From contig NZ_VOBR01000005.1 in NCBI RefSeq assembly GCF_007845675.1, positions 62,001 to 126,000 on the forward strand: a stretch of 64,000 nt of DNA, written 5' to 3'. The position numbers and the translations under genes were made by a program. Each line of letters begins with the position of its first letter. Within the stretch, counting starts at the first letter, position 1. A model generated the notes under the pieces. It made no database searches. It saw nothing but the letters and a program-made list of their open reading frames with translations, and was not told where the DNA came from. Positions 737 through 8,910 of the stretch are shown in pieces. Source of the stretch: Lentzea tibetensis (lineage in GTDB: Bacteria > Actinomycetota > Actinomycetes > Mycobacteriales > Pseudonocardiaceae).

Positions 737-1006
737 ATGTGCCGAAACATCCGCGTGCTCCACAACTTCGAACCGCCCGCGACGAGCGACGAGGTCCACG
801 CGGCCGCGTTGCAGTACGTGCGCAAGGTGAGCGGCGCGACCAAGCCGTCTGTCGTGAACGCCGAGGCGTTCGACCAGGCCGTCGAGGAGGTCGCGGCCGC
901 CACCAGGAAGCTGCTGGACAGCCTGGTCACCGCCGCGCCGCCGAAGGACCGCGAGATCGAGGCCGCCAAGGCCAAGGCGCGGGCGGCGGAGCGCTACGGC
1001 ACCTGA
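737..1006 (+). CDS. DUF2277 family protein
   Basis: A short soluble protein of 89 residues beginning MCRNIRVLHNFEPPAT, the invariant opening of the DUF2277 family. The family has no established function. A GGAGG lies only one base before the ATG, which is too close for normal initiation, so either the transcript is leaderless or translation is weak; the conserved MCRN start makes the ATG secure. The 3' end overlaps the end of the convergent SARP gene by 13 bp. Confidence 0.88.
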   Translation: MCRNIRVLHNFEPPATSDEVHAAALQYVRKVSGATKPSVVNAEAFDQAVEEVAAATRKLLDSLVTAAPPKDREIEAAKAKARAAERYGT

Positions 1007-3873
1007 AGCACGCCCATGTCGCGGTAGTGCCCCGCGGCCTCGTCGACCCGGCCGAGGCCGCGCAGCGCGTGCGCGAGCTCGATGCGGTACTCGATGCGCC
1101 GCGCCACCTCCAATGCCTGCTCGAACGACCCGGCCGCCTCAGGTGACCCGAGGTCGCGCTGCACGGAGCCGAGCACGTTCAGCGCGCCGGCCAGGTGGTC
1201 GACCAGCACACCCCGGCGCAGGTCGTCGACCACCTCGGACGCGACGGCCAGCGCGCGGTCCAGGTGACCGGCCCTGCGGTGGCCGTCGGCGAGCTTGATC
1301 CGGCCGCGCACGGTGTAGTCGGTGTTGCCGACCTCGCGCGCCAGCTCGAGGCCCTCGTAGAGCAGCCGCAACGCCTGGTCGTGCTCGCCCTGCCTGCTCA
1401 GCGTCGCGCCGAGCCCGGAGAGCACGGACGCCTCCTCGCTGCGTTCCCCGATCTCCTGGCTCTGGGCGAGCGCCTTGCTCAGCAGTCGCGACGCCGTGTC
1501 GAGGTCACCGGTCACCAGCGCGATGCGGCCCAGGTTGCCGACGCAGATCGCGACCAGGCGGTAGTCGCCGCTGTTCGCGAACAGCTCCAGCGAGCCCTGG
1601 TTGCACTCGCGGGCGCGGGCGTGCCTGCCGAGCCGCTGGTTCAGCAGGCCCAGCACGACGAGCGCGTACGCCTGCCCGGTCACGTCGTCCAGCGAACGGG
1701 TCAGCTCGAGGTTGCGCTCGGCGTGCACCAGGCCCTCCCGGTAGCGGCACGCCATGTAGTACGTCATCGCGACCTGCGACTGGTTCACCGCCTGCGCCCG
1801 CGTGTCCCCCAGCCTGCGCACCGCCTCCAGCCCCGCCTCCTGCAGTGCGACGAGTTCGTCGATGCGGTGCGAGATGATCAGGTAGTGGCCGACGTGGCGC
1901 GGCAGGTCGCGCACGTGCCGGTCGCAGCCCTTGCGCGCGGCGTACGCGCCCGCCGCGAGCAGGTTCGGGTGCTCGACCGCGAACCACCTCATCGCGTCCG
2001 GCAGCGTGAACACCGACGGCAGCGACGCGGGCGGGTGCACGATCTCCGGCTCGGCGCGTCTCCTGCCCGGTTGCAGGGAGTCGGCCGCCCGGTCGGTGAC
2101 CGTGAGGTAGTAGTCGAGCAGGCGGCCGTCCACCTCGGCGGGTGAGTCCGATTCGGACACCAGCGTGAGCGCGTGCGCGCGCAGCAGGTCGTGCAGCTGG
2201 AAGCGGTCGCGTGCCCGCTGCTCGATCAGGTGGTGGTCGAGCAGGTCCTCGATCAGGTCCTCGGCCCGCGTGCGCGGGAGTGCGGTCAGCGCGGCGGCCG
2301 CGTGCACGTCCACGTCCACGCCGGGATGCACGCCGAGCAACCGGAACATGCGCTGCTGCGCGGCGTCCAGGTAGGTGTAGGACAGCGTGAACGCGGCGGC
2401 GACGTCCCGGTCGTCGATCGCGAGCTCGGATAATCGCTGTTGTTCGGTGCGCAGTCGCTCGACCAGGTCCGCCACTGTCCACCTCGGACGATGACGCAGC
2501 CGTGCCGCGGCCACGCGCACGGCCAGCGGCAGGTACCCGCACAGCGAGACGAGCTCGGCGACACCGTCACCGCGCTCCTCCCCCACGACCCTGCGGAACA
2601 GCTCCTCCGCGTCGGCGGGCGGGAGCACCTCCAGCGACAGCGGGACGGCGCCGTCCAGGTTCGGCAGTCGCCGCCTGCTGGTCACGACGATCGCGCAGCC
2701 CGGTGAGCCCGGCACGAGCGGGCGCACCTGCGCCGCGTCGACCGCGTTGTCGAGCACGATCAGAGCCTGCTTGCCCGCCATCTCGGTGCGCCACGCGACG
2801 ACGCGCTCGTCCACGTCGTTCGGGATCTCCCCCGACGGCACGCCGATCGACCGGAGCAGCACCCCCAGCGCCGCGTGGGGTTCGACGGGCGACCTCGACG
2901 GGGTGAACCCGTGCAGGTCGACGAACAGCCGTCCGTGCGGGAAGCGGGACGCGAGCTCGTGCCCCGCGCGCACGGCCAGCGCGGTCTTGCCGACCCCGGC
3001 CATGCCGTCGATCGAGATCACGCCACCCCGCGTCGCGACCGTGTCGATCAGCCGGGCCAGCTCACCGGTCCGGCCGGTGAAGTCCGGCAGGTCGAACGGC
3101 AGGGAGTCCGGCACGCGGACCGCGGCCGGTGCGACGACGGCGGCCGGTTCCGCCCGGCTCAGCCCCGGATCGGCGCGGAGGATCCGTTCGTAGAGCGACT
3201 TCAGCTCGTCGCCGGGGTCGACACCGAGGTCGTCGGCGAGCAGACGGCGGCACTCCTCGTACCGGCGCAGCGATTCGGCCTGCCGTCCGCACCGGTGCAG
3301 TGCGAGCATCAGCAGGCCGATCAGCTTCTCCTGGTACGGGTGTTCGGCGCACAGGGTCGTGAGCTCGCCGATCACCTCGCGATGTCTGCCCAGGTCCAGC
3401 TCGTGCTCGACCCACTCCTCGACGACGGCGAGCCGTTCCTGCACGAGGCCGTCGCGCAGCCGGTCGAGCACCGCGGACCCGGCGACGCCGTCGAACGGCG
3501 TGCCCCGCCACAGCGCGAGCGCCTTGAACAGGCCGGCCGCCGGTTCGTCCGACGCCTTGGCGTCCGACACGAGCCGCCGGAAGACGTGCAGGTCGACCTC
3601 GGCGTCGAGCGCGTAGCCGGGCGAGCGCCGTGCGATCTCCAGCCCGGCGGGCTTCAGCAGCTTCCTCAGCCGGGAGATGTAGCCGTGCACGAGGCCGCGC
3701 CAGTCACCGGGCGGCTCCTCGCCCCACAACGCCTCGGCGAGGCGGTCGACGGACACGCCCTGCCCCGCGTTGAGCGCGAGCATCGACAGCACGCAGCGCT
3801 GTTGCGGGGCACCGGCGGCCACGCGTTCCCCGCCGTGCCAGATCTCGACCGACCCCAGGATCCCGATCTCCAT
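994..3873 (-). CDS. SARP/AfsR-type transcriptional regulator (BTAD, NB-ARC, TPR)
   Basis: About 959 residues in the AfsR order. Residues 1-95 form an OmpR-like winged helix (EIGILGSVEIW, then YISRLRKLL), followed by a bacterial transcriptional activation domain to about 240. Next is an NB-ARC ATPase with a P-loop (DGMAGVGKTALAV), an ALIVLDNA Walker B segment and an LPLAVRVAAARL arm. The C-terminal half is TPR repeats. Such proteins activate adjacent secondary-metabolism or exported-enzyme genes by binding heptamers spaced 11 bp. Exactly such repeats lie just upstream of this gene and of the divergent muralytic gene at 3970, so autoregulation and activation of the neighbour are likely. The ATG at 3873 is preferred; a GTG at 3885 adds four residues. 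Confidence 0.92.
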   Translation of the reverse strand: MEIGILGSVEIWHGGERVAAGAPQQRCVLSMLALNAGQGVSVDRLAEALWGEEPPGDWRGLVHGYISRLRKLLKPAGLEIARRSPGYALDAEVDLHVFRRLVSDAKASDEPAAGLFKALALWRGTPFDGVAGSAVLDRLRDGLVQERLAVVEEWVEHELDLGRHREVIGELTTLCAEHPYQEKLIGLLMLALHRCGRQAESLRRYEECRRLLADDLGVDPGDELKSLYERILRADPGLSRAEPAAVVAPAAVRVPDSLPFDLPDFTGRTGELARLIDTVATRGGVISIDGMAGVGKTALAVRAGHELASRFPHGRLFVDLHGFTPSRSPVEPHAALGVLLRSIGVPSGEIPNDVDERVVAWRTEMAGKQALIVLDNAVDAAQVRPLVPGSPGCAIVVTSRRRLPNLDGAVPLSLEVLPPADAEELFRRVVGEERGDGVAELVSLCGYLPLAVRVAAARLRHRPRWTVADLVERLRTEQQRLSELAIDDRDVAAAFTLSYTYLDAAQQRMFRLLGVHPGVDVDVHAAAALTALPRTRAEDLIEDLLDHHLIEQRARDRFQLHDLLRAHALTLVSESDSPAEVDGRLLDYYLTVTDRAADSLQPGRRRAEPEIVHPPASLPSVFTLPDAMRWFAVEHPNLLAAGAYAARKGCDRHVRDLPRHVGHYLIISHRIDELVALQEAGLEAVRRLGDTRAQAVNQSQVAMTYYMACRYREGLVHAERNLELTRSLDDVTGQAYALVVLGLLNQRLGRHARARECNQGSLELFANSGDYRLVAICVGNLGRIALVTGDLDTASRLLSKALAQSQEIGERSEEASVLSGLGATLSRQGEHDQALRLLYEGLELAREVGNTDYTVRGRIKLADGHRRAGHLDRALAVASEVVDDLRRGVLVDHLAGALNVLGSVQRDLGSPEAAGSFEQALEVARRIEYRIELAHALRGLGRVDEAAGHYRDMGVLQVP

Positions 3874-3891
3874 GACGGGAGTCACGATAGC

Positions 3892-3969: not shown

Positions 3970-5193
3970 ATGTCCAGACGCCTCTGCGCCCTGCTCACCG
4001 CGGCTGTACTTCCTCTCCTCTCCACGACCGTCATCACCGGCCAGGCACAGGCCGACGACCACGGACCCGAGGTGTGCGCCTACCACGCCGACCAGGCCGG
4101 GTTCGCCGGTGACGCGCTGATCGAGGCGATCGCGGTCGGCATGACGGAGTCGGACTGCCGCCCGGACGCCACGCACCGCAACCCGAACGGTCAGCTCGAC
4201 CAGGGTGTGTACATGATCGGCGCGGCGAACGGCGAGGTGAACCCCTGCTACCTGAACCCCTCGTGCAACTCCGAGGTCGCGCACGACATGTACAAGGCGC
4301 AGGGCGACTCGTGGCTGCCGAAGTGGAAGGCGAGCTACGGCACGGCGCGCTACCAGCGGTGGCTGCCGGTCGCCCGGCAGGCGGCGGAGCCGTACCTGGA
4401 GCCGCGCATCGGACGCGTGGGCGTCCTGTCCGGCACCACGTTGCTGGTCAAGGAGGGCACCCTCTGGGAGCAGTGGCTGAACCAGCGCGGCGACGTCGCC
4501 AGGTTCGAGATCGACGGCAACCGCATCGGCGTGCTGACCACCGGCGGCGAGGTGCTCGTCAAGGAGGGCGACCTCTACGCGCAGTGGGTGCCGCAGCTGG
4601 GTGGGGTCAAGGACTTCCACCTCGCGGGCAACCGGATCGGGGTGCTGCGCACCGACGGTTCGCTGGCGGTCAAGGAAGGCACGCTCTGGGCGTCCTGGAC
4701 GGAGCAGACGAAGGGCGTCGTCGACTTCGACCTCACGCCGAACCGCATCGGCGCCGTGTTCGGCGACGGCAACGCGAGCGTCAAGGAAGGCAGCCTGTGG
4801 GACGGCTGGATCAACCAGCTGCCGGGCGCGAAGGGCATCGAGCTGGCAGGCAACCGGATCGGCGTGCTGCGGCAGAACGGCACGCTCGCGGTGAAGGACG
4901 GCACCCCGTACGCGTACTGGACCGAGCAGAGCGGTGACGTCGCGGACTTCGACCTCACGCCCACCCGCGTCGGCATCGTGCACAGCGGTGGCCTGCTGCG
5001 GGTCAAGGACGGCGACCTCTACGCGGGCTGGGTCGACCAGCTGGAGCAGGCCGTCGACGTCGAGCTGTCCGGCAACCGCGTGGGCGTCCGGCAGAGTCAC
5101 GGCGCGTTCCAGGTGAAGGAGGGCACGCTCTGGGCCTCCTGGACGAATCAGGCGCCCTCGACCTCCCAGGGCGACCTGACCCACCGCCGCTAG
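3970..5193 (+). CDS. Secreted lysozyme/transglycosylase-like enzyme with seven-repeat propeller module
   Basis: The 407-residue protein has a signal peptide (about 1-28). Residues 33-140 form a small lysozyme-like domain: Glu60 in VGMTESDC is the likely catalytic acid, followed by LDQGVYMI and Cys pairs. From residue 149 to the end come seven repeats of about 37 residues, each with R(I/V)GV, a VKEG turn and a conserved Trp (LYAxW). This suggests a seven-bladed propeller, probably a wall- or glycan-binding module. The same module is fused to different catalytic domains in the next two genes. The ATG at 3970 has a GGGGGA ribosome-binding site nine bases upstream. The domain assignments come from motif reading only. 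Confidence 0.8.
   Translation: MSRRLCALLTAAVLPLLSTTVITGQAQADDHGPEVCAYHADQAGFAGDALIEAIAVGMTESDCRPDATHRNPNGQLDQGVYMIGAANGEVNPCYLNPSCNSEVAHDMYKAQGDSWLPKWKASYGTARYQRWLPVARQAAEPYLEPRIGRVGVLSGTTLLVKEGTLWEQWLNQRGDVARFEIDGNRIGVLTTGGEVLVKEGDLYAQWVPQLGGVKDFHLAGNRIGVLRTDGSLAVKEGTLWASWTEQTKGVVDFDLTPNRIGAVFGDGNASVKEGSLWDGWINQLPGAKGIELAGNRIGVLRQNGTLAVKDGTPYAYWTEQSGDVADFDLTPTRVGIVHSGGLLRVKDGDLYAGWVDQLEQAVDVELSGNRVGVRQSHGAFQVKEGTLWASWTNQAPSTSQGDLTHRR
4414..5187 (+). repeat. Seven ~111-bp in-frame repeats (blades 1-7)
   Basis: These bases encode seven consecutive ~37-residue repeats opening with RVGV, RIGV, RIGV, RIGA, RIGV, RVGI and RVGV. Odd and even units differ (the WTEQ type alternates with the WxNQ/WVPQ type), so a two-unit block was probably the duplicated ancestor. 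Confidence 0.8.
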
Positions 5194-5205
5194 GAGCAGA
5201 CGCCG

Positions 5206-5237
5206 AAAGGGCCGCCCTCTCGCGAGGGCGGCCCTTT
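5206..5237. terminator. Bidirectional terminator
   Basis: A perfect 14-bp stem (AAAGGGCCGCCCTC at 5206-5219 and its complement at 5224-5237) closes on a TCGC tetraloop. It has a T run at one end and an A run at the other, and lies between the convergent muralytic genes. Confidence 0.92.
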
Positions 5238-5251
5238 TCACTCTGTCGCGA

Positions 5252-6667
5252 TCAGTGGCGGTAGCAGGTGATCTGGCTGTCCGCGACGGGCAGCGAGCCG
5301 CCGTTGAAGTACCGCAGCGCCGACTTGAAGTCGTTGCAGCGCTCCAGGTCCTCCGCCGAGCTGGCCGCGTAGCCGACGTAGCGGGAGATCAGGCCCATGT
5401 CGTAGTGGTCAGCGGCGTTGTTGGAGTCGGAACGCGCCACCGTCCAGTACCACCGGGCGATCGCGGCGCTGTACTGCAGGCTCGCGGCGGCCTCCGGGTT
5501 CGACACGAGGTCGACGCCCAGGTGGTTGCCAGCACCCCGGTAGTTGGCCTCGCTGGTCAGCTGGATGAAGCCGCGGCCCTTGTACGTGCCGGACACGCCC
5601 TCCAGCGCGTTGTAGCGGAAGCCGCTCTCGTTGCGCAGGGTCGCGAGGAACGCGGCCTTGCGCGCCGGGGTCGTGATGCCGCCGCGCACCATCTCGGCGT
5701 TCAGGCTCTCCAGGCCCTGCGAGACGGTCGCCTCGTTGGGGATGGAGCCGTAGATGTTGCGCAGGTCCTGCAGCGACACGACCTGGCCCGGTGCGGACGG
5801 CGAGGTGAGGTCGGCGGCCGTGACGCCGCCCGCCTGCTCGGTCCACGCGGCGTAGAGCGACCCCTCCTTCACGGCGAGCGAACCGTCGTTGCGCAGCACG
5901 CCCAGCCGGTCGCCGGACAGCTCGACCTCCTTGACACCGCCCATCTGGTTGACCCAGCCCGCGTAGAGGTTGCCCTCCTTGACGGAAGCGATGTCGTTGC
6001 CGAACACCACGCCGATGCGGTTGGTCGTCAGCTCGAAGTCCTTGACGCCACCGGCCTGCTCGGTCCAGCTCTCGTACAGCGTGCCGTCCTTCACGGCCAG
6101 CGAGTTGTCGTTGCGCAGCACGCCGATCCGGCCCCCGGCGAGCTCGATGTCCTTGGTGGCGCCCATCTGGTTGACCCAGCCCGCGTACAGGTCGCCCTCC
6201 TTGACGCTGGCCAGCCCGTCGGTGAACACCGCGCCGATCCGGTTGGGCGTCAGGTCGAAGTCCGCGACGTTGCCCGCCTGCTCGGTCCAGCCGGCGTACA
6301 GCGAGCCGTCCTTGACCGCCAGCGAACCGTCGGTGCGGAGGACACCGATCCGGTTGCCAGAGAGGTGGAAGTCCTTCGCGCCGCCGAGCTGCGTCGTCCA
6401 GCCCGCGTAGAGGTCGCCCTCCTTGACCATGACGTCCCCGCCGGTGGTCAGGACGCCGATTCTGTTGCCGTCGATCTCGAACTTGGCGATGCCGCCGATC
6501 TGCGGGACCCAGCTCGCGTACAGGTTTCCTTCCTTCACCGAGAGGGTGCCGCCCTGCAGGATGCCGATCCGGGGGCCGGTCTCCGCCGCCTGCGCGGCCG
6601 GGGTGGACATCAGAGTGGTGGCGATGGTGGCGCCGATCAGTGATGCGGCGACTACTGCGTTCTTCAT
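5252..6667 (-). CDS. Secreted GH19-like chitinase/lysozyme with N-terminal seven-repeat propeller module
   Basis: The 471-residue protein has a signal peptide (1-27, ending AAQAAE). The seven propeller repeats come first (about residues 33-291). The C-terminal domain (about 300-471) has the glycoside hydrolase 19 fold signature: Glu347 in RNESGF and a YKGRGFIQLTSEANY segment, matching GH19 endolysins and chitinases that cut chitin or the peptidoglycan glycan strand. The domain order is reversed relative to its two neighbours. It follows the M15-like gene by 26 bp on the same strand with a GAGGAAA ribosome-binding site, so the two form an operon. Whether the substrate is chitin or peptidoglycan cannot be decided from sequence. 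Confidence 0.85.
   Translation of the reverse strand: MKNAVVAASLIGATIATTLMSTPAAQAAETGPRIGILQGGTLSVKEGNLYASWVPQIGGIAKFEIDGNRIGVLTTGGDVMVKEGDLYAGWTTQLGGAKDFHLSGNRIGVLRTDGSLAVKDGSLYAGWTEQAGNVADFDLTPNRIGAVFTDGLASVKEGDLYAGWVNQMGATKDIELAGGRIGVLRNDNSLAVKDGTLYESWTEQAGGVKDFELTTNRIGVVFGNDIASVKEGNLYAGWVNQMGGVKEVELSGDRLGVLRNDGSLAVKEGSLYAAWTEQAGGVTAADLTSPSAPGQVVSLQDLRNIYGSIPNEATVSQGLESLNAEMVRGGITTPARKAAFLATLRNESGFRYNALEGVSGTYKGRGFIQLTSEANYRGAGNHLGVDLVSNPEAAASLQYSAAIARWYWTVARSDSNNAADHYDMGLISRYVGYAASSAEDLERCNDFKSALRYFNGGSLPVADSQITCYRH
5795..6571 (-). repeat. Seven ~111-bp in-frame repeats
   Basis: The blades open RIGI, RIGV, RIGV, RIGA, RIGV, RIGV and RLGV. Several are nearly identical to the same-numbered blade of the gene at 6694-8034 (blade 4 differs at few positions), indicating recent duplication or gene conversion between the two genes. 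Confidence 0.8.
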
Positions 6668-6693
6668 GGCCTTTGTTTCCTCAGTCGGAAGAA

Positions 6694-8034
6694 TTAGCGG
6701 TGGGTGAGGTCGGCGGAGGTGATGGGAGAGGCCTGCTCGGTCCAGGCGGCGTAGAGCGAACCCTCCTTGACCGCGAGCGAACCGTCGTTGCGCACCACAC
6801 CGATGCGGTCGGCCGAGAGGTCGATTTCCCTGGTGCTGCCCATCTGGTTGACCCAGCCCGCGTAGAGGTCGCCTTCCTTGACCGAGGCAATGCCGTTGCC
6901 GAACACCGCACCGATGCGGTTGGTCGTCATTTCGAAGCTCGTGATGCCACCGGCCTGCTCGGTCCACGACGCGTAGAGGGAGCCGTCCTTGACCGCCAGC
7001 GAGTTGTCGGTGCGCAGGACGCCGAGGCGTCCGCCGGCGAGCTCGATGTCCTTGACGCCGCCCATCTGGTTGACCCAGCCGGCGTACAGGTCGCCTTCCT
7101 TGACGCTGGCGAGCCCGTCGGTGAAGACGGCGCCGATGCGGTTCGGGGTCATGTCGAAGTCCGCGACGTTGCCCGCCTGCTCGGTCCAGCCGGCGTAGAG
7201 CGAGCCGTCCTTGACCGCGAGCGAACCGTCGTTGCGCAGCACTCCGATGCGGTCACCGGCCAGGTGGAAGTCCTTCGCGCCGCCGAGCTGCGTCGTCCAG
7301 CCCGCGTAGAGGTCGCCCTCCTTGACCAGCACCTCGCCGCCGGTCGTGAGCACGCCGATGCGGTCGCCGTCGATCTCGAACTTCGCGACGTTGCCGAGCT
7401 GCGGGACCCAGCCCGCGTAGAGGTTGCCCTCCTTGACCGACAGCGTGCCGCCCTGCAGGACACCGATCCGGCCGATCTGCTGCGCGGCCTGCGTCCACCA
7501 GGACGTCTGCTTGTACGCGCCCGCCCAGCTGAAGCTGATGTGGATGTGGTCCTGGTGGGGGCTGTCACCGCTGTAGGGCGTCCAGCCGCTGCCCGGCCGG
7601 TAGGCCTCCCAGATCCGGTTGTTCCAGATCACGTACATGACGCCGAGCCGGCGGGCCATGGCGTGCGCGTTGCCGTGCTGGTCGGTGGCGAGCAGCCAGC
7701 TGAGGAAATCCTCGGCCTTGGCCCGGTCCGCGGTGTCGAAGTAGTTGAAGTGGTAGTCGAGCGCACGGCCCTCGTGGTGCTCGCTGACCGAGCCGTCGCA
7801 GTTGCGGACGATGCCCGCCGTGTGGGTGCCGTAGGTCGTGTTGAGCAGGTCACGCACGCCGATCGGGCCGGCCTTCGCGCTGCTCTCGCACGTCTTCTGG
7901 CCGTCGTAGGACGAGTACGGGTCGATCTGGGCGCCGAAGCTCGGCGTGTTCGGCGCGGCCTCCGCCTGCACCGGCATGAGCCCGAGCGTGATGCTCGCGA
8001 CGACCGCGGCGAGCACCGTCTTCATTCCACGCAT
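6694..8034 (-). CDS. Secreted M15-type peptidase-like protein with seven-repeat propeller module
   Basis: About 446 residues with a signal peptide ending near QAEAA. Residues about 30-180 resemble the metal-dependent D,D-carboxypeptidase/endopeptidase fold (VanY/M15): SEHHEGRALDYHF supplies the zinc ligands His86 and Asp93, and DHIHIS supplies His165. This family cuts peptide stems or crossbridges of peptidoglycan. The seven propeller repeats fill residues about 189-446. ATG 8034 is chosen because GGGAGA lies six bases upstream; the ATG at 8040 would abut that site. It is the first large gene of a two-gene operon with the GH19-like enzyme. Together with the gene at 3970, the set can attack glycan and peptide bonds. 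Confidence 0.83.
   Translation of the reverse strand: MRGMKTVLAAVVASITLGLMPVQAEAAPNTPSFGAQIDPYSSYDGQKTCESSAKAGPIGVRDLLNTTYGTHTAGIVRNCDGSVSEHHEGRALDYHFNYFDTADRAKAEDFLSWLLATDQHGNAHAMARRLGVMYVIWNNRIWEAYRPGSGWTPYSGDSPHQDHIHISFSWAGAYKQTSWWTQAAQQIGRIGVLQGGTLSVKEGNLYAGWVPQLGNVAKFEIDGDRIGVLTTGGEVLVKEGDLYAGWTTQLGGAKDFHLAGDRIGVLRNDGSLAVKDGSLYAGWTEQAGNVADFDMTPNRIGAVFTDGLASVKEGDLYAGWVNQMGGVKDIELAGGRLGVLRTDNSLAVKDGSLYASWTEQAGGITSFEMTTNRIGAVFGNGIASVKEGDLYAGWVNQMGSTREIDLSADRIGVVRNDGSLAVKEGSLYAAWTEQASPITSADLTHR
6697..7470 (-). repeat. Seven ~111-bp in-frame repeats
   Basis: The blades open RIGV, RIGV, RIGV, RIGA, RLGV, RIGA and RIGV. This is the third copy of the module in 4.5 kb. The alternation of blade types is the same as in the other two genes. 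Confidence 0.8.
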
Positions 8035-8036
8035 GG

Positions 8037-8213
8037 TCATTCTCCCAAGATTTCCGTTGCGATTGATTCGGCTTTTTCCCGAGTAGCCGCGAGCACGTGA
8101 GCGAATACTTGGAAACCGGATTCGTCGACGCGAACCTTCAGGTTCTCGAGCTTTGTTCCCCTGAGTGCGTCCGTATCCACGTTCGTTTTCAGATTTCGTT
8201 CGATCAGGAACAT
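8037..8213 (-). CDS. Possible small protein, 58 residues
   Basis: An open frame ends in a TGA two bases before the start of the M15-like gene. Its product is charged and looks protein-like (MFLIERNLKT at the start, SIATEILGE at the end), but third codon positions are much less G/C-rich than in neighbouring genes and no ribosome-binding site precedes the ATG. It may be a small gene of foreign composition or merely the 5' leader of the muralytic operon. No family is recognised. Confidence 0.3.
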   Translation of the reverse strand: MFLIERNLKTNVDTDALRGTKLENLKVRVDESGFQVFAHVLAATREKAESIATEILGE

Positions 8214-8361: not shown

Positions 8362-8910
8362 ATGCGTACAGACGACGTGCAGGAACTGGTCATGCGAGCA
8401 CAGGCCGAGATCGACCTGTGCATGTCGGGCGGAGTGGGCGAGCTCGTGGACGTGCGCTTCCTCCCGCGGGGGACGCCGGTGCGCGTCCTCTACCCGGACG
8501 ACGTCGACCGGGAGTCGGTGCCCGCGTTCCTGCGCGGGCACGACCAGGTCCGGATGTGCGCCGGACTGCCGTCCGGGCTGGTGCTGTGCGACCAGGAGAC
8601 GGCGGTCGTGCCGGGGCCGACGCCGGTGGTCATCAGATCGGCGGAGACCGTCGCCCTGCTCAGAGCGTGGTTCGACCACCTGTGGGCGGGCGCGATGGCG
8701 GCGGACGTCCGCGTGGTCGGCGGGTTGACCGAACAGGAGCGGGTGATCCTGCGGCTGCTCGCGGCGGGCGCGACGGACGACGCGGCGGCGGCGCGGCTGG
8801 GCACGTCGGCGCGGTCGGTGCGGCGCGTCATGTCCGGAGTGATGGGCAGGCTCGGCGCGCGGAGCCGGTTCCAGGCGGGCCAGCTGGCGGCCCGGCGCGG
8901 CTGGCTCTGA
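8362..8910 (+). CDS. LuxR-type HTH transcriptional regulator
   Basis: The 182-residue protein has no receiver-domain motifs. Residues about 1-110 resemble the C-terminal half of TrmB/helix-turn-helix sensors of actinomycetes. The last 65 residues form a GerE/LuxR DNA-binding domain (LTEQERVILRLLAAGATDD, then ARLGTSARSVRR and MGRLGARSRFQAG). It lies divergently from the muralytic operon and directly behind four SARP-like repeats, so it may be a second tier of control over the lytic genes. The ATG at 8362 lies about a dozen bases from the predicted transcription start, so the message may be nearly leaderless. Confidence 0.85.
   Translation: MRTDDVQELVMRAQAEIDLCMSGGVGELVDVRFLPRGTPVRVLYPDDVDRESVPAFLRGHDQVRMCAGLPSGLVLCDQETAVVPGPTPVVIRSAETVALLRAWFDHLWAGAMAADVRVVGGLTEQERVILRLLAAGATDDAAAARLGTSARSVRRVMSGVMGRLGARSRFQAGQLAARRGWL

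Follow-up and report, generated by a model that had tools for sequence, protein, structure and literature searches.

Proteins that couple a wall hydrolase to a binding domain are familiar. Phage endolysins and modular peptidoglycan hydrolases combine a catalytic domain, of GH19, CHAP, NlpC/P60 or SLT type, with a binding domain, and VldE (Spr1875), an L,D-endopeptidase of the pneumococcus, has a putative N-terminal wall-binding module as its targeting part (PMC11667670). Targeting by lectins is described for the umbrella toxins of Streptomyces, whose receptor-binding part, UmbA, joins an inactive trypsin-like domain to lectin domains of many kinds, seven families of seven-bladed propellers among them; UmbA4 has a six-bladed propeller, whose ligand is a teichuronic-acid-like polymer on wall teichoic acid (PMC13274773, PMC11062931). 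Here we describe three adjacent genes, denoted P1, P2 and P3, in a stretch of 64,000 nucleotides from the soil bacterium Lentzea tibetensis (contig NZ_VOBR01000005.1, positions 62,001 to 126,000; hereafter the window). Their products join three different enzyme domains of wall-hydrolase families to one shared propeller-like module, here called the VKEG head. At roughly even confidence, we consider P1-P3 to form a secreted set of wall-lysing proteins that is addressed by a lectin and probably acts against other bacteria. Propeller-headed wall hydrolase sets were not found among the papers listed by full-text searches, whose library leaves out many subscription papers and bioRxiv preprints; within that scope, the remark of a first-pass annotation of the window, made from the letters alone, that it did not recognise the system as described holds.

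Three wall-hydrolase-type proteins share one predicted propeller

The three source genes were confirmed at their places. P1 and P2 are convergent, and P3 lies directly upstream of P2 on the same strand. The proteins and their parts are as follows.

3970..5193, + strand: P1 (407 aa), SLT_3 muramidase-like enzyme with a C-terminal head, predicted to be a seven-bladed propeller
4054..4404, + strand: SLT_3 lysozyme-like domain of P1, with Glu60 (PF18896, E 9.5e-9)
4414..5190, + strand: propeller head of P1, 7 repeats
5252..6667, - strand: P2 (471 aa), propeller head followed by a GH19 domain
5798..6571, - strand: propeller head of P2, 7 repeats
5255..5797, - strand: GH19 (endolysin/chitinase-type) domain of P2, with Glu347 and Glu356 (PF00182, E 1.6e-7)
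6694..8040, - strand: P3 (448 aa), predicted VldE-type zinc endopeptidase with a C-terminal propeller head
7474..7959, - strand: VldE-type domain of P3 (by model, Foldseek and profile), with H88, D95, H162, D164, H165 and H167, counted from the start at 8040
6697..7470, - strand: propeller head of P3, 7 repeats (modelled fragment, 6697-7479)

P3 has a second possible start, the ATG at 8034, which is the coordinate and the residue numbering used in the first-pass annotation. As read from the sequence, each of the three has a signal-peptide-like N-terminus that ends in A-x-A.

Each protein contains seven repeats of 37 residues, the first of them 36 residues long. The motif V-K-[E/D]-G is present at exact spacing in 7/7 repeats of every protein, and self-identity at lag 37 is 0.41-0.48, compared with ~0.065 at other lags. 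Shuffling each protein 2000 times yielded at best one motif and no correct spacing, against seven and six observed. The heads are 63-86% identical pairwise. The repeat analysis and the shuffles thus bear out the claim that three neighbouring proteins share one module of seven ~37-residue repeats with a VKEG motif. Structure prediction of the module gave a seven-bladed beta-propeller, a closed ring of four-stranded blades, as the first-pass annotation had expected; the outcome that it named as a refutation, a model lacking a closed propeller, did not occur.

P1-P3 have no Pfam match to DUF346 at E <= 1 and are hence not placed in the PLL/DUF346 family; a profile of the VKEG repeat retrieved no PLL chain from the PDB sequences at E <= 1, and identity to the PLL-type lectins of Photorhabdus is 14%. 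Sub-cut-off Pfam matches of the heads, such as WG_beta_rep at 16 bits against 25.6, were not used. UmbA structures were not among the matches listed by fold searches with the head, which excludes nothing. The modelled VKEG propeller is PLL-like in fold, and we favour the reading that it is lectin-like, with putative sugar binding, because of this fold and of its genomic company described below.

Near-identical blades suggest recent amplification here, too, as in the highly repetitive propellers amplified from single blades that are described in PMC9218822, a paper whose main text is without the words 'VKEG', 'PLL' or 'tectonin'. Relatives of the VKEG head occur with six and with seven blades. 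Two close head-only proteins from outside the family (L117 and L118) have seven and six blades, respectively, by motif count, a difference that suggests recent gain or loss of a blade.

The enzyme domains retain their active-site residues

The SLT_3 domain of P1 scores 36 bits against a Pfam cut-off of 27. Its Glu60, which we take to be the catalytic residue, is present as annotated, and both it and the stretch MTES are kept in 3/3 rows with a VKEG head (the window and two relatives). The GH19 domain of P2 scores 31.8 bits against a cut-off of 25.5, and matches phage endolysin families down to E 5.5e-22 (phrog_181) as well as a solved endolysin at E 2e-10. Glu347, likewise annotated correctly, and Glu356 are invariant in 19 aligned GH19 rows, two of which are identical, and are presumably the acid and the base.

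The catalytic domain of P3 matches neither a Pfam nor an NCBIfam family at E 0.01. Its alignment comprises 18 rows, namely the window and 17 of the 23 relatives found, and 3/18 rows show weak matches to VanY, the best at 0.0021. Searched against the PDB sequences, the profile of this alignment retrieved two at E <= 0.1, both Streptococcus pneumoniae VldE, with a best E of 2.9e-10. The domain was modelled with a pLDDT (predicted local distance difference test) of 94.5, and 5/5 Foldseek matches at E <= 0.001 were VldE. In VldE, alanine replacement of H301, D308, H370, D372, H373 or H375 is reported to abolish activity, while E368A is active (PMC11667670). Of their equivalents in P3, D164 is conserved to at least 90% across the 18 rows, and H88, D95, H162, H165 and H167 do not vary. 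Together these results indicate that the P3 domain is VldE-type (clan MD, M15-like), judging by its modelled fold, an H/D/H zinc site and a further H, D and H. P3 would hence share with VldE the fold and the six activity-essential residues, but differs from it in two respects: its propeller is C-terminal, whereas the putative wall-binding module of VldE is N-terminal, and serine replaces E368, which is described as blocking zinc in the latent state (PMC11667670).

The first-pass annotation had called P3 'M15-like', with His86/Asp93/His165. These residues (H88/D95/H167 from 8040) do correspond to the three zinc-ligand positions of VldE, so the zinc site stands, whereas the family label is refined to VldE, a characterised peptidoglycan endopeptidase. 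Its broader claim of peptidoglycan-active families also held, with SLT_3 and GH19 above their Pfam cut-offs and a VldE-type third domain; membership in unrelated families, which it had named as a refutation, was not found.

The head is patchily distributed and joined to several hydrolase families

The VKEG module is present in three copies in the L. tibetensis genome (G000), and in 8/25 genomes of the genus, at least 29/298 of the family and at least 4/394 class-wide, own genome included in each case. The last two counts are lower bounds, as scoring was limited to 8 candidates per genome in the family search and to 6 in the class-wide search. The three other genomes of the class-wide search hold head-only proteins. 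In 20/29 carrier genomes of the family the module is joined to wall hydrolases of five catalytic families: GH19, CHAP, NlpC/P60, VldE and SLT_3. Among these 20 hydrolase carriers, 16 have a GH19 gene beside a CHAP or an NlpC/P60 gene. The architectures, with domain types assigned by phmmer using window or locus domains as queries and by Pfam on 17 proteins outside the window, are distributed over the carriers as follows.

GH19 + CHAP: 10/29 family genomes; 4 of the 10 loci also have a head-only gene
GH19 + NlpC/P60: 6/29
GH19 with a CHAP remnant: 1/29 (G055)
SLT_3 + VldE: 3/29; GH19 is seen in the window only, and the other two loci end inside heads at contig ends
Inactive trypsin: 4/29
N-terminal region without a Pfam match at E 0.01: 3/29 (G038, G050, G198)
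Head-only genes: 1/29
One-blade fragment: 1/29 (G016)

The active-site Cys and His are kept in 11/11 intact CHAP rows and in 7/7 NlpC/P60 rows, two of which are identical. A CHAP-propeller-GH19 fusion in G055 was considered and dropped: what matches CHAP there is a degraded remnant that lies upstream of the GH19 gene, and the genome is therefore counted as GH19 with a CHAP remnant. The proteins that join the module to an N-terminal region without a Pfam match (L060, L063 and L064, in G038, G050 and G198) are encoded by two genes in tandem in G050 and in G198. A head-only protein with the VKEG repeat is encoded on the linear 1.8 Mb plasmid pSCL4 of Streptomyces clavuligerus (L119:6797-7774); three plasmid records of this species match the head, at two places each, and one place of one record was examined.

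Heads within one genome tend to resemble each other. Those of P2 and P3 are 86% identical overall and 90% over their first 105 aa, the head pair of G002 is 87% identical over 105 aa, and that of G017 agrees at 40/40 amino acids and 124/129 nucleotides. Heads on the same enzyme in different genomes reach 83% for VldE (G000 versus G002), slightly below these within-genome pairs. The P1 head is 70-73% identical to all four others over 105 aa and no closer within its genome, and the two heads form separate clades in 8/10 GH19 + CHAP genomes. Given these two results, homogenisation of heads within a genome was not kept as a general rule, and we regard it as a tendency. Separate histories of the P2 head and its GH19 domain were likewise rejected, as the GH19 tree puts P2 beside CHAP-paired GH19 domains, in agreement with the head tree; the GH19 tree has weak support, with 3 of its 15 inner branches starred.

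The same head occurs on umbrella-toxin-type proteins

In 4/29 carriers (three by Pfam, the fourth by phmmer) the module follows a trypsin domain. In 4/4 of these another residue stands in place of the catalytic His and GDAGG in place of GDSGG, triad motifs by which, on our assumption, the domain can be called inactive. An open reading frame (ORF) bearing ALF repeats lies within ~1.5 kb of the trypsin-type gene in 4/4. In G044 and G076, an ALF gene has as its neighbour a small protein whose V-E-D motif resembles that reported for UmbB, at a distance from the trypsin-type gene of ~10 and 5.6 kb, respectively; in G282 a VEDY stretch precedes the trypsin domain within the trypsin-type protein itself. 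ALF repeats were searched for in the L. tibetensis genome and in seven chosen genomes, which is no census: the query was positive in 7/7 of the related genomes and had no match in L. tibetensis, and in the other three of the seven no listed ALF gene was near the module.

The window proteins themselves are not UmbA, as P1-P3 have no Pfam match to trypsin, and no ALF-bearing UmbC was found in their genome. They resemble UmbA in being presumably secreted proteins with a lectin-like part; in UmbA the lectins are C-terminal, often propellers and highly diversified, and direct a particle to target cells. They differ in that the module carries wall hydrolases instead of a trypsin-like adaptor (PMC11062931, PMC13274773). 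In addition, a target has been identified for two UmbA proteins, both with six-bladed propellers, whereas the window head has seven blades (PMC13274773).

Three parallel loci carry unrelated heads

The AfsR-type regulator that borders the window locus has three paralogues (52-54% identical) in the L. tibetensis genome, and a divergent SLT_3-propeller gene stands next to two of these; other AfsR-type matches are at most 44% identical, except one at 51% in G002. SLT_3 domains related to that of P1 (E <= 1e-8) number three in the genome, each beside, and divergent from, a paralogous AfsR-type regulator. The resulting three loci share one plan, with a regulator, a divergent SLT_3 gene and a peptidase-like gene.

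Locus 1, window: VKEG heads on SLT_3, GH19 and VldE
Locus 2, G000 contig 55, 212.7-219.3 kb: PLL/DUF346 heads on SLT_3 and VldE
Locus 3, G000 contig 15, ~70.2-76.9 kb: FG-GAP/VCBS heads on SLT_3, an NlpC/P60-like protein and a third protein

The heads of locus 2 are homologous to solved sugar-binding PLL lectins (E 1.2e-84). The NlpC/P60-like protein of locus 3 has no Pfam NlpC match at E 0.01; its G002 relative has one at 0.0021, below the cut-off. By our own reading of its sequence, the third protein may be lysozyme-like.

Within a locus the heads are 63-86% (locus 1), 78% (locus 2) and 76-97% (locus 3) identical. Between loci, 21 head pairs score 29-55 with a mean of 40.2, the level of shuffled sequences (mean 39.5, 99th percentile 62.7), and by this measure the heads of different loci are unrelated. 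Nevertheless, identity is 83% between the VldE domains of loci 1 and 2 and 41-46% among the three SLT_3 domains. Unrelated heads on similar enzyme domains fit an exchange of heads by whole sets.

The pairing of regulator and propeller enzyme extends beyond this genome. Genus regulators at least 50% identical number seven (four in L. tibetensis, two in G002, one in G017), and 6/7 have a divergent SLT_3-propeller neighbour. In the family, 19 SLT_3 hits (E <= 1e-8) are found in 14/298 genomes; judged by eye, 16 have propeller-type repeats (VKEG 3, PLL 3, FG-GAP/VCBS types 10) and three do not. Pfam was run on the three L. tibetensis copies only.

Further genes were observed around these loci and elsewhere in the genome. 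Between the SLT_3-PLL and VldE-PLL genes of locus 2, the position of GH19 in the window, sits a gene for a weakly GH43-like protein with a signal-peptide-like start and without a PLL head (L122:7819-8832). The fourth paralogous AfsR-type regulator adjoins a PF14099 polysaccharide lyase (L124; contig 2, 200.0-202.8 kb). Two more VldE-like proteins (L098 and L099, on contigs 1 and 14) have long repeat-like C-terminal regions with sub-cut-off CBM_6 matches, and their contigs have no SLT_3 hit at E <= 1e-8.

Genes bordering the window locus

Three further genes adjoin P1-P3.

994..3885, - strand: AfsR/SARP-type regulator (Trans_reg_C, BTAD, NB-ARC and TPR by Pfam), divergent from P1
8037..8213, - strand: conserved 58-aa ORF upstream of P3, its stop overlapping the P3 start (ATGA)
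8362..8910, + strand: LuxR/GerE-type regulator at the locus border (PF00196, 1.3e-7)

Both regulators have close orthologues in 2/24 other genus genomes. Those of the AfsR-type regulator are 78-80% identical and syntenic, both genomes sharing the SLT_3/VldE locus; those of the LuxR/GerE-type regulator are 85-86% identical, again in two genomes that share the locus, while its remaining matches are 40-45% identical. Close orthologues of the two regulators are thus confined to the three genus genomes with the locus, L. tibetensis included. The 58-aa ORF (MFLIERNLK...ATEILGE), which is without a signal-peptide-like start, has counterparts in G002 (74% identity) and G017 (71%).

Discussion

The first-pass annotation left it undecided whether the set is a lytic weapon or a wall-remodelling system. 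Its interpretation is supported in part, for the fold and the enzyme families, and between its two options we favour action on other cells because of the patchy distribution of the module, its link to umbrella toxins and the three loci with different heads. In the mechanism that we propose, P1, P2 and P3 would be exported, and the propeller would bind a glycopolymer of the bacterial surface, with a wall teichoic or teichuronic-type polymer as the leading candidate, and hold the enzymes there. The SLT_3, GH19 and VldE-type enzymes could then jointly cut glycan strands and stem peptides until the wall fails. As one head is placed on several enzymes, the three proteins would share one address, and the two further sets with PLL and FG-GAP/VCBS heads may represent several addresses served by one chemistry. 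Other Gram-positive bacteria would be the likeliest targets.

It is also conceivable, though unlikely, that the set acts on the wall of its producer, in hyphal branching, developmental lysis or spore germination, with heads that bind the cell's own glycopolymers at particular sites. SLT_3, GH19 and VldE-type domains are common autolysin families, and an AfsR-type regulator fits developmental control. Moreover, VldE, the closest characterised relative of the P3 enzyme, goes to the septum of its own cell (PMC11667670). A core function of this kind would, however, be at odds with the lack of a module match in 17/25 genus genomes and, among the candidates scored per genome, in 269/298 family genomes, and both the three head types on parallel sets and the sharing of the module with UmbA-like genes point outward. 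Maintenance of the own wall accounts less well for the patchy occurrence and the variety of heads than does an arms race with other cells. We hold it for rather improbable that the locus serves general lytic secretion for feeding, in scavenging or predation, with the head as a broad wall anchor that gives no species address. Complementary cuts, of the glycan by two enzyme families and of the stem peptide by a third, would suit feeding, as would the weakly GH43-like gene of locus 2 and the polysaccharide lyase beside the fourth regulator, yet a broad anchor would not require three unrelated head families on parallel sets.

A non-lectin propeller that binds proteins and assembles the enzymes into a complex is an explanation to which we give little credence, since the VKEG module occupies the lectin position of UmbA-like proteins and the heads of the parallel locus 2 are homologous to sugar-binding lectins of solved structure. 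Least credible of all is the descent of the genes from phage endolysins retained in the genome. The phrog_181 match of the P2 GH19 domain speaks for it, but a search of 50,697 phage records gave no match to the P2 head, and scanning viral contigs for its pattern gave three hits, none of them a relative. This origin is without support in these searches, which did not extend to prophage genes around the locus. Unlike phage endolysins, P1-P3 have signal-peptide-like starts, a propeller head shared by several enzymes and an adjoining regulator.

Returning to a secreted wall-lysing set addressed by its heads, a wider and more tentative possibility is that such loci are an enzymatic counterpart of umbrella toxins, made up of hydrolase sets that actinobacteria would secrete, several per genome, with an exchangeable propeller lectin per locus and paralogous AfsR-type regulators, each set lysing a different group of competitors. 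The main text of the umbrella-toxin paper PMC13274773 does not use the word 'muralytic', and no sets of different hydrolases that combine one head per locus, different heads in parallel loci of one genome and a head family in common with umbrella-toxin-type proteins were met among the papers listed. If the explanation is true, toxin delivery and enzymatic lysis would in actinobacteria have a means of addressing in common, the recognition of wall glycopolymers by lectins, and the heads would provide a ready panel of probes for such polymers.

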